Origin: Dehalococcoidia bacterium
GTDB taxonomy: Bacteria; Chloroflexota; Dehalococcoidia; Bin125
Direction: 5' to 3'
NCBI GenBank assembly: GCA_022828105.1
Contig: JAJEJC010000008.1
Span: 248,001-312,000 of the forward strand
Length of the DNA stretch: 64,000 bases
Part shown: positions 4,441-17,725 of the stretch, piece by piece
Layout: the number at the start of each line of letters is the position of its first letter
Numbering within the stretch: the stretch's first letter is position 1
Notes under the pieces: model-generated
What the model was told of the DNA's origin: nothing
What the model saw: the letters and a program-made list of their open reading frames with translations, nothing else
The model's database searches: none
Position numbers and translations under genes: made by a program

Positions 4441-4480
4441 TGTCGCGCAGCGACATCTCCCCCCGCGAAGCGGGGGGAGT
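4441..4480 (-). repeat. Three-way-junction repeat element, copy 1
   Basis: Read on the minus strand, this copy has a 10-bp C-rich/G-rich hairpin (4457-4479, loop of 3), one spacer base and a second perfect hairpin TGTCGC-TGC-GCGACA (4441-4455). Its outer closing stem is weak. It lies between the two SDR genes. It shares architecture with the copies near 16.2, 17.0 and 17.7 kb. Confidence 0.75.
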
Positions 4481-16242: not shown

Positions 16243-16292
16243 CCCCCTCTCCCCCCGCCTCCGGCGGGGGGAGATGCCGAAGGCAGAGGGGG
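16243..16292 (+). repeat. Three-way-junction repeat element, copy 2 (most complete)
   Basis: An outer stem CCCCCT/AGGGGG encloses an 11-bp stem (16249-16259 with 16263-16273, loop TCC) and a 4-bp stem TGCC-GAA-GGCA (16275-16285). All paired positions are Watson-Crick, so the single strand can fold into a closed three-way junction. It lies between the LLM oxidoreductase and mntA-like genes. Confidence 0.8.
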
Positions 16293-16364
16293 GCTCCGGG
16301 GCTCTCCGCAGTATCACGAAACGACTACGCTGGACTCGTCGAACTCGAACCAGGGGCCAGCACC

Positions 16365-16676
16365 GTGATTGCGCTGATCGACCAACACTTCGACGAACTC
16401 TCCGACCTCTGCCGCCAGTACCAGGTCGACCGCCTCGACCTGTTCGGCTCCGCGGCCACCGCCGACTTTGATCCCGCCGTCAGCGACCTCGACTTCATCG
16501 TCGCCTACCACCCCGACGCCGACCCCGATCCGTGGTACCGCAAACACCTGGAACTGCAGGCGGCCCTGGCCGAGCTCTTTGACCGACCGGTTGATCTCGT
16601 AATCGAGCAGCCCTTCAGAAACCCCTACTTCGCCGAGGCCGTCGAGCAAACCCGGACCCTGCTCTATGCCGCCTAG
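16365..16676 (+). CDS. mntA: MntA-type minimal nucleotidyltransferase antitoxin
   Basis: The 103-residue protein starts at GTG 16365. It shows the MNT active site: GSAAT at about residues 26-30 followed by SDLDFIV, giving GS and the two metal-binding Asp residues. MNT proteins paired with HEPN toxins of the HepT family neutralise the toxin by adding AMP to it. The next reading frame begins within its last 11 bases and encodes a HepT homologue, as in functional pairs. The active site appears intact although the partner gene is interrupted. It lies between two copies of the three-way-junction repeat. Confidence 0.85.
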   Translation: MIALIDQHFDELSDLCRQYQVDRLDLFGSAATADFDPAVSDLDFIVAYHPDADPDPWYRKHLELQAALAELFDRPVDLVIEQPFRNPYFAEAVEQTRTLLYAA

Positions 16677-17007
16677 GTCGAAGAAGTACCTGCGTGACAT
16701 CCTCGACGCCGCGCTGCTGATCAGGCAATTCACCGACGGTATGACACTGGCCGACTACTAGTCGGACATCGTTGTCCGTTCAGCCGTCGAACGCCAGCTC
16801 ACCATCCTTTGCGAAGCGATGACGCAACTCTCCTCCTCGGACGAATCATTGGTCGAGCAAATCTCTGACCAAGAATCGATCATCGGAATGCGCATCGTGC
16901 TCGTCCATCGCTACGCCGATCTCGATAACCGACGCGTGTGGAGCACAATCACACTCAGCCTCCCGATCCTTCTCCAGGAGGTCAACTCGCTCCTCGAGCA
17001 ACGCTGA
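16666..17007 (+). pseudogene. hepT: HepT-like HEPN ribonuclease toxin interrupted by an in-frame TAG
   Basis: From ATG 16666 the frame reads 31 codons, stops at TAG (16759-16761), and then continues open in the same frame to 17007. Ignoring the stop gives 113 residues, the normal HepT length. The second part keeps the toxin motif RX4HXY in MRIVLVHRY and the helical pattern SAVERQLTILCEA. A single base change, for example TTG to TAG, explains the break; I see no frameshift. An ATG at 16819 could restart a 62-residue C-terminal fragment that holds the motif. Loss of the toxin with an intact antitoxin is the simplest reading; suppression of TAG or a base-calling error are alternatives. Confidence 0.82.
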
Positions 17008-17016
17008 CCCCGACCT

Positions 17017-17062
17017 CCCCTCTCCCCCCTCCAGGGGGGAGATGTCCCGTAGGGACAGGGGG
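17017..17062 (+). repeat. Three-way-junction repeat element, copy 3
   Basis: CCCC/GGGG closes a 10-bp stem TCTCCCCCCT/AGGGGGGAGA (loop CC) and a 6-bp stem TGTCCC-GTA-GGGACA (17043-17057), with no unpaired linker bases. It begins 10 bases after the hepT-like stop. Confidence 0.8.
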
Positions 17063-17165
17063 CACTCCCCAGCCCCGTCAACCATGCAACAAGTCACCAC
17101 CTTTCATAGAACATCCGTCCACATACAATTGACCTCCTCACCTAACCCGAAATAGGAGTCCACTT

Positions 17166-17567
17166 GTGTCCAGCACCACCGCCAACCCGCCCCTCCCCTT
17201 CACCGCCGACGCCATCATCGACCGCCTCCGACACCAGGCAACCAACGGCCCCGCCTACGTCCAGCACAGCGCGACCAAAGCACTCGCGCACATCAAGGGC
17301 CTCTACGCCCAGGCCCAATACGAAGCCAGGCTCGCCTACGACACGGCCCGCGTCGCACTGAGCGACTCCATCCAACACACCCCCGCCAATAGCAACGACC
17401 AGGCCGGCGACGGAAGCATGGGTCTCGCAGAGCGCATGGAGGGCCTCAACAACGGCACCCTCCAGCCCACTCCCGAAGAACTCGCCCACTTTGAGCCGGA
17501 CAACCCGGCTCAGGCCGATGAAGATGACGAAGACCACCCAGAAGAGCAGGAAGATGATCCTCCCTAA
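17166..17567 (+). CDS. Unrecognised small protein with acidic C-terminal tail
   Basis: The 133-residue protein starts at GTG 17166 behind TAGGAG. Residues 10-70 look helical (FTADAIIDRLRHQA, KALAHIKGLYAQAQYEARLAYDTA), with no Cys and no membrane segment. The last 40 residues are Asp/Glu/Pro-rich (ADEDDEDHPEEQEDDPP). I do not recognise a family. It lies between repeat copies 3 and 4 in the accessory island next to the mntA-hepT remnant. A DNA- or protein-binding helical domain with a charged tail is all that can be said. A competing frame from 17164 is shorter and has odd composition. Confidence 0.6.
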   Translation: MSSTTANPPLPFTADAIIDRLRHQATNGPAYVQHSATKALAHIKGLYAQAQYEARLAYDTARVALSDSIQHTPANSNDQAGDGSMGLAERMEGLNNGTLQPTPEELAHFEPDNPAQADEDDEDHPEEQEDDPP

Positions 17568-17640
17568 TTCCCGCCACGATTCCACGCCGCCCGCCCTCGC
17601 GGTTGCTCCACACCGACCGCCGCTTTTTTTCCTACCGACC

Positions 17641-17675
17641 TCCCCTCTCCCCCCACCTCCGGCGGAGGGATCCGT
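17641..17675 (+). repeat. Decayed three-way-junction repeat, adjoining copy 4
   Basis: This stretch resembles the 5' half and first stem of copy 2 (CTCCCCCCACC, TCC loop, GGCGGAGGGA) but several pairs are broken and the second stem is missing. It abuts the intact copy at 17679. Confidence 0.55.
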
Positions 17676-17678
17676 CTG

Positions 17679-17725
17679 CCTCTCCCCCCTCCAGGGGGGA
17701 GATGTCACGTAGTGACAGAGGGGGG
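17679..17725 (+). repeat. Three-way-junction repeat element, copy 4
   Basis: It has the same 10-bp first stem as copy 3 (17681-17702) and a second stem TGTCAC-GTA-GTGACA (17703-17717), in which the fifth pair is A:T instead of C:G (copy 3) or G:C (copy 1). It ends in a G-run 8 bases before the candidate PAC2 start at 17734. Confidence 0.8.

Follow-up and report, generated by a model that had tools for sequence, protein, structure and literature searches.

Palindromic elements in the window and their fold

In the present study, a family of short palindromic repeats was analysed in a 64,000-nucleotide stretch of DNA from a Dehalococcoidia bacterium (assembly GCA_022828105.1, contig JAJEJC010000008.1, positions 248,001 to 312,000; hereafter the window), together with the DUF559 genes that such repeats flank at other loci. 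On the G-rich strand, the element consists of a first hairpin (CTCCCCCC..GGGGGGAG), a second hairpin with a GNA triloop, whose stem is called stem 2 below, and a G-rich tail, AGAGGGGGG. The window contains the following copies:

4441-4480, minus strand: class A element of the long stem-2 type, between two SDR genes; degraded tail, AGCAGGGG
16243-16292, plus strand: class A element of the short stem-2 type; hairpin 1 tip GCCTCCGGC from 16249, stem 2 TGCC-GAA-GGCA, tail AGAGGGGGG
17017-17062, plus strand: class A element of the long stem-2 type; stem 2 TGTCCC-GTA-GGGACA, tail degraded to AGGGGGC
17641-17675, plus strand: degraded hairpin-1 remnant, neighbour of the 17679 copy
17679-17725, plus strand: class A element of the long stem-2 type; hairpin 1 at 17682-17701, stem 2 at 17704-17716 with loop GTA, tail AGAGGGGGG at 17717-17725

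The three plus-strand copies, the inverted copy and the decayed neighbour all lie where a preliminary description of this DNA had placed them. That description called the copies intact, and four full copies are indeed present, but the tails at 17017-17062 and 4441-4480 are imperfect. The linker ATCCGTCTGCC, between the remnant and the 17679 copy, was found again elsewhere in the genome, next to further copies. An mntA/hepT-like pair occupies window 16365-17008, with one element to either side: the nucleotidyltransferase gene, which is mntA-like, runs from 16365 to 16676, and a hepT-like frame starts at about 16666 and carries an in-frame TAG near 16760. The elements also produce spurious open reading frames with SLRDISPLEGGE-type peptides (for example window 16846-17100, and 17142-17708 on the minus strand), from which false gene calls probably arise.

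In the 2.74-Mb genome to which the window belongs, the pattern GGGGAGATGTCN{4,9}GACA gave 67 exact matches and the looser pattern GGGGAGATGNCN{3,9}GNCAGAGGGG gave 140, against 0 for each in a backwards control; the family greatly exceeds chance expectation, and at least 140 copies is taken as a lower bound. Of the 15 genus genomes, 14 carry the element, their copy numbers ranging from 3 to 195 (its pattern was unmatched in genome G008), and a search of 85 other relatives with the element pattern yielded one single match, in one genome only. These short palindromes are mostly intergenic, in agreement with the earlier comparison with repetitive extragenic palindromic (REP) sequences and bacterial interspersed mosaic elements (BIMEs), and inverted pairs join a long with a short type in 15 of 15 cases. 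At one locus (G000:C4:376000-386000, L031), a stretch of about 6 kb is occupied by roughly a dozen inverted long/short pairs, with the spacer repeated too, and resembles a BIME tandem array. Several contig ends in the assembly bear element copies.

The fold of the second hairpin is conserved through compensated base changes, as had been claimed. The variable stem-2 pair is Watson-Crick in all 60 long-type copies parsed, and all four pair types are represented (C:G 30, A:T 21, T:A 5, G:C 4), whereas 10,000 shuffles averaged 23 Watson-Crick pairs of 60 and never exceeded 36. Of 83 copies, 74 have a GNA triloop as their stem-2 loop; the consensus for DNA mini-hairpins of unusual stability is a GNA loop with a closing C-G pair. 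The tips of hairpin 1 occur in many variant forms, often still base-paired, and because MAFFT alignment misplaced them, patterns, parsing and shuffles were used in place of a covariance model. The outer C-run/G-run stem, which was thought to close the fold into a three-way junction, fared less well. RNA-parameter folding closes this stem in most copies; the 5' flank, however, is complementary to the tail over at least 4 bases in 69% of copies, only slightly above the 52% obtained with shuffled flanks, and copies in Rhizobiales and Clostridia lack the 5' C-run. Thus, the closed three-way junction is rejected as a conserved feature. The conserved part is the tail itself, not the outer stem, and what is maintained is the mirror-repeat relation of the tail to the 3' arm of hairpin 1.

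The mirror tail and the triplex code

Read in mirror order, the G-rich tail corresponds to the purine (3') arm of hairpin 1. Among all loci collected, the arm base next to GGGGAG predicts the tail base before GAGGG, an A in the arm corresponding to A in the tail in 295 of 303 copies (T in 5), G to G in 13 of 13, and C to T in 11 of 11. The purine-motif triplex code includes T over a C:G inversion, and the relation between arm and tail follows this code (G.GC, A or T.AT). When hairpins were picked without regard to the tail, the mean code run was 6.24 with the element's own tail; swapping the tails gave at most 5.35 and shuffling them at most 4.56. The same mirror rule was recognised by eye in other classes (GGGAGAGGG..GGGTGAGGG, GGGGAGAAG..GATGAGGGG and GGAGGGG..GGGGTGG).

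The order of the strands is that of a class II intrastrand triplex, with a 5' pyrimidine arm, a purine arm and a 3' antiparallel purine third strand (T.CG at inversions). This architecture, in which a reverse-Hoogsteen purine tail stands in mirror order, has been described for the BoxC, PIT and TM_ECO repeats, and TM_ECO formed the triplex in vitro, as seen by circular dichroism and nuclear magnetic resonance (PMC4666352). The present elements share with these repeats a G/C-rich composition, a dispersed distribution and inverted pairs that are always heterotypic (TM_ECO A with B in 5 of 5; here long with short, as above), and the TM_ECO consensus is matched or nearly matched by the class D copies of the genus and by the copies beside E. 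coli ycjD. In contrast to the 3-nt loop of TM_ECO, classes A, B and C add a covarying GNA-loop hairpin between arm and tail; this second loop of about 9-13 nt lies outside the 1-6 nt limit of the ITxF search, and the elements are therefore a variant, not a strict member, of the class II motif. Because the tail mirrors the arm and obeys the triplex code, the elements are hairpin-capped relatives of the BoxC/PIT/TM intrastrand triplex repeats. In Rhizobiales loci, the core CTCCCC..GGGGAGATG..CAGAGGGGG occurs as inverted pairs with 80-150 bp spacing; it resembles the RIME1 and Bru-RS palindromic repeats and is presumably RIME1.

Covarying stems would also be expected of a structured RNA maintained for its fold as RNA, such as a terminator, an mRNA stabiliser or a small RNA; the preliminary description had considered a structured RNA. 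This is very unlikely, because no Rfam match was obtained in the window at gathering thresholds and the stem-2 loops conform to the GNA consensus for stable DNA mini-hairpins. Transcriptional activity has been reported for 26 REP elements of S. meliloti (PMC2873474); however, RNA cannot adopt a purine-motif triplex, and neither promoter nor terminator activity was seen for the related PIT elements (PMC4666352). The association with DUF559 and the presence or absence of elements at orthologous sites, described below, likewise indicate a DNA element.

DUF559 genes between elements

The cluster of copies at 376-386 kb of G000:C4 contains a DUF559 gene with elements at both sides, a partner that the preliminary description had not anticipated. 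All 13 full DUF559 genes of the genus adjoin elements of the same architecture, which belong to several sequence classes:

Class A: GGGGAGATG..CAGAGGGG
Class B: GGGGAGCTG..CTGAGGGG
Class C: GGGGAGGTG..CGGAGGGG
Class D: GGGAGAGGG..GGGTGAGGG

DUF559 was present in 34 of the 43 genomes that were selected for bearing the element and in 142 of the 301 genomes of a Chloroflexota-wide sample, and its units are delimited by elements that share this architecture and are mostly inverted. The association was observed in several comparisons. First, at least one element lay within 260 bp of DUF559 at 13 of 13 loci in the genus, 54 of 70 in the element-selected genomes and 18 of 29 in the Chloroflexota sample, compared with 0 of 30 ParE toxin genes and 3 of 101 random positions taken from the same loci at a distance of over 500 bp. 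Second, a motif-free alignment revealed matching flanks at 11 of 13, 35 of 70 and 13 of 29 loci, respectively; the controls gave 2 of 30 for ParE (inverted matches 0 of 30) and 1.3% for random positions. Third, in a fresh set from a plasmid collection, covering Neisseria, E. coli, Klebsiella, Deinococcus, cyanobacteria, alphaproteobacteria and Photobacterium (some records being chromosome-sized), at least one element was found at 18 of 20 DUF559 records and matching flanks at 11 of 20.

The partner protein belongs to PF04480 (DUF559; E=2e-39), and the catalytic residues D47, E58, D60, H64 and D71 are 98-100% conserved in 111 proteins. Its closest solved sequence is 3hrl, which was also the best structure match of an AlphaFold2 model (pLDDT 91.6). 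The next Foldseek match was the catalytic domain of the homing endonuclease I-Bth0305I (3r3p, E=1.1e-3, TM 0.79), and weaker matches were obtained to Vsr (1vsr and 1cw0). DUF559 is regarded here as an EDxHD/Vsr-like nuclease. The predicted fold is shared with I-Bth0305I and Vsr, but the genomic setting differs: palindromic triplex-type repeats surround the DUF559 genes, which are not located in inteins or introns or beside a cytosine methylase. A search of the PADLOC defence families returned a marginal DpdF match only. The DUF559 protein VsrA of Caulobacter can cause an SOS response (PMC12907096).

The class of the flanking elements follows the clade of the nuclease. In a tree comprising 112 DUF559 proteins, 82 of them with a classed flank, the element class changes 26 times, whereas the minimum was 41 in global shuffles and 37 in shuffles within taxon (2,000 each); in Alphaproteobacteria alone, 4 changes were counted against 13.7 expected. 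Moreover, the class D DUF559 proteins of the genus cluster with class D proteins of other Chloroflexota and not with those of their own genus, a grouping in the protein tree that suggests transfer as a unit with the elements. One alphaproteobacterial clade comprises the DUF559 proteins of L205, L215, L218, L236, L237 and L255; the three loci viewed (L205, L215 and L218) have a common element class with a far longer second stem, e.g. CTAAGAATTTGC..GCAAATTCTTAG between GGGAGA and GAGAGGGG.

Insertion sites and proposed mobility

Both filled and empty orthologous sites were found. At the gap between the two SDR genes that holds the window copy 4441-4480, a class A element is present in 3 genomes, a class C element in 3 and another palindrome in 2, and no clear element is seen in 6. 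In the two genomes with the other palindrome (L350 and L353, near 2410-2470), this unrelated sequence, TCATACCCGCGCTTGCCGCGGGTATC, perhaps represents another repeat family. The same AMP-ligase gene is followed by a DUF559 unit in some cases and not in others, and whole element-DUF559-element units occur as in-frame inserts in leucyl-tRNA synthetase (LeuRS), isoleucyl-tRNA synthetase (IleRS) and methionine synthase (MetH). The LeuRS insert falls between positions 236 and 237 of the T. thermophilus enzyme, where the chain is continuous, and the breaks in IleRS and MetH are likewise clean; two further host genes, an HMG-CoA reductase and a DNA methylase, were recognised by eye only. In the plasmid records, DUF559 lies between sufB and sufC, paaD and paaZ, and hpaB and hpaE. 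The E. coli gene ycjD, located between sapF and fabI, belongs to DUF559, and in BL21 an exact TM_ECO lies about 170 bp downstream of it. The ycjD-free E. coli strains were considered as clean empty sapF-fabI sites and set aside because efflux genes adjoin sapF there.

These sites bear on two explanations in which the nuclease does not move the repeats. In one, the repeats are passive and structure-prone, and DUF559 is a Vsr-type repair nuclease whose proximity is incidental, both favouring intergenic gaps. The interpretation of Caulobacter VsrA as an enzyme of very-short-patch repair (PMC12907096) would agree with this; however, ParE, another small mobile gene family, had such a neighbourhood in none of 30 cases, and neither the co-segregation of class and clade nor the in-frame inserts inside essential genes fit incidental proximity, which we consider most improbable. 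In the other, a homing-type DUF559 nuclease gene lands at existing palindromes, while the elements multiply by replication slippage, gene conversion or another transposase. The nearest functional fold relative of DUF559 is a homing endonuclease, many elements exist without DUF559, and insertion sequences are known to target REPs (PMC1525189). Despite this, the inserts in LeuRS, IleRS and MetH contain both elements as well as the gene, in places where the solved homologues are uninterrupted, and the element class tracks the DUF559 clade across taxa; landing at pre-existing palindromes is thus possible but rather unlikely.

Mobilisation by the Y1 (HUH) single-strand transposase TnpA_REP, the REP-associated tyrosine transposase (RAYT), had also been raised. 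REP-like size, intergenic positions and heterotypic inverted pairs speak for a REP/BIME family moved in this manner, and the known REP-RAYT systems (REPtron; PMC3733652, PMC2817692) similarly combine short inverted-pair palindromes, many non-autonomous copies and a repeat-flanked nuclease gene. Nevertheless, the RAYT family PF01797 was unmatched in the genome of the window and gave one weak match in the 15 genus genomes, so that a Y1 transposase is rejected for this genus. The GTAG or CGTC tag of REPs was absent beside the hairpin at the ends of the consensus alignment; the GTA present is the stem-2 loop. The system also differs from REP-RAYT in its EDxHD/PD-(D/E)XK nuclease in place of an HUH transposase and in its triplex-type mirror tail. 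A RAYT is an extremely doubtful mover of these repeats.

Herein, we propose a REP-RAYT-like system of non-autonomous mobile DNA repeats driven by a homing-type nuclease, an account towards which we lean with some reserve. The elements would be short, non-autonomous mobile DNA repeats. In the single-stranded state, for instance on the lagging strand during replication, the tail might turn back and join hairpin 1 in a purine-motif triplex, and the turn might be capped by hairpin 2. The DUF559 nuclease would recognise folded elements of its own class and cut or nick beside them, and repair would then copy the whole unit, or the small element alone, to new places in a homing-like manner, a route analogous to that of REP-RAYT but with a different enzyme. 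Genomes without DUF559 would retain non-autonomous copies as relics. The broader proposal, that homing-type EDxHD DUF559 nucleases, including E. coli YcjD, constitute a mobile-element type of several phyla and mobilise short repeats recognised as intrastrand triplexes, seems to us evenly poised between right and wrong.

Several observations weigh against the proposed nuclease-driven mobility. Cleavage and transposition of the elements are inferred only. Many DUF559 genes have a clear element at one side only, DUF559 loci within one genome are related and not independent, and several genomes are rich in copies and have no DUF559 gene (G004, 95% complete, has 195 copies). Of four classes tested, copy number tracks the class-matched DUF559 for class C only (p=0.0036), A, B and D showing no relation. 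The generic element/tail regular expression was composed after some loci had been viewed, for which reason the fresh plasmid set was taken; this set and the flank alignment are free of that bias. In vivo dimethyl sulphate footprinting of TM_ECO gave no support for a stable triplex (PMC4666352), and the only functional study of a DUF559 protein found interpreted Caulobacter VsrA as a mismatch-repair nuclease (PMC12907096).

The structural class has been described already as BoxC/PIT/TM, and in rhizobia probably as RIME1. The hairpin-capped form and the DUF559 partnership appear to be new, as neither was found in the open-licence literature; a DUF559-repeat link in a subscription journal is possible. 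BoxC/PIT/TM-type repeats are among the commonest dispersed bacterial repeats, and a 2015 survey found no mobility gene nearby, nor any mobility activity near TM_ECO (PMC4666352). The DUF559 partnership offers a testable candidate engine for their spread. If the proposal is true, DUF559 would be the missing mobility gene of BoxC/PIT/TM and RIME-like repeats. As an uncharacterised family that is present in the 142 Chloroflexota genomes counted above and, as ycjD, in most E. coli, it would also gain a first function outside mismatch repair, and a natural role for DNA triplexes would be suggested. In a Synechocystis plasmid (L370), a DUF559 gene lies directly upstream of the BREX-1 PglX methyltransferase gene.
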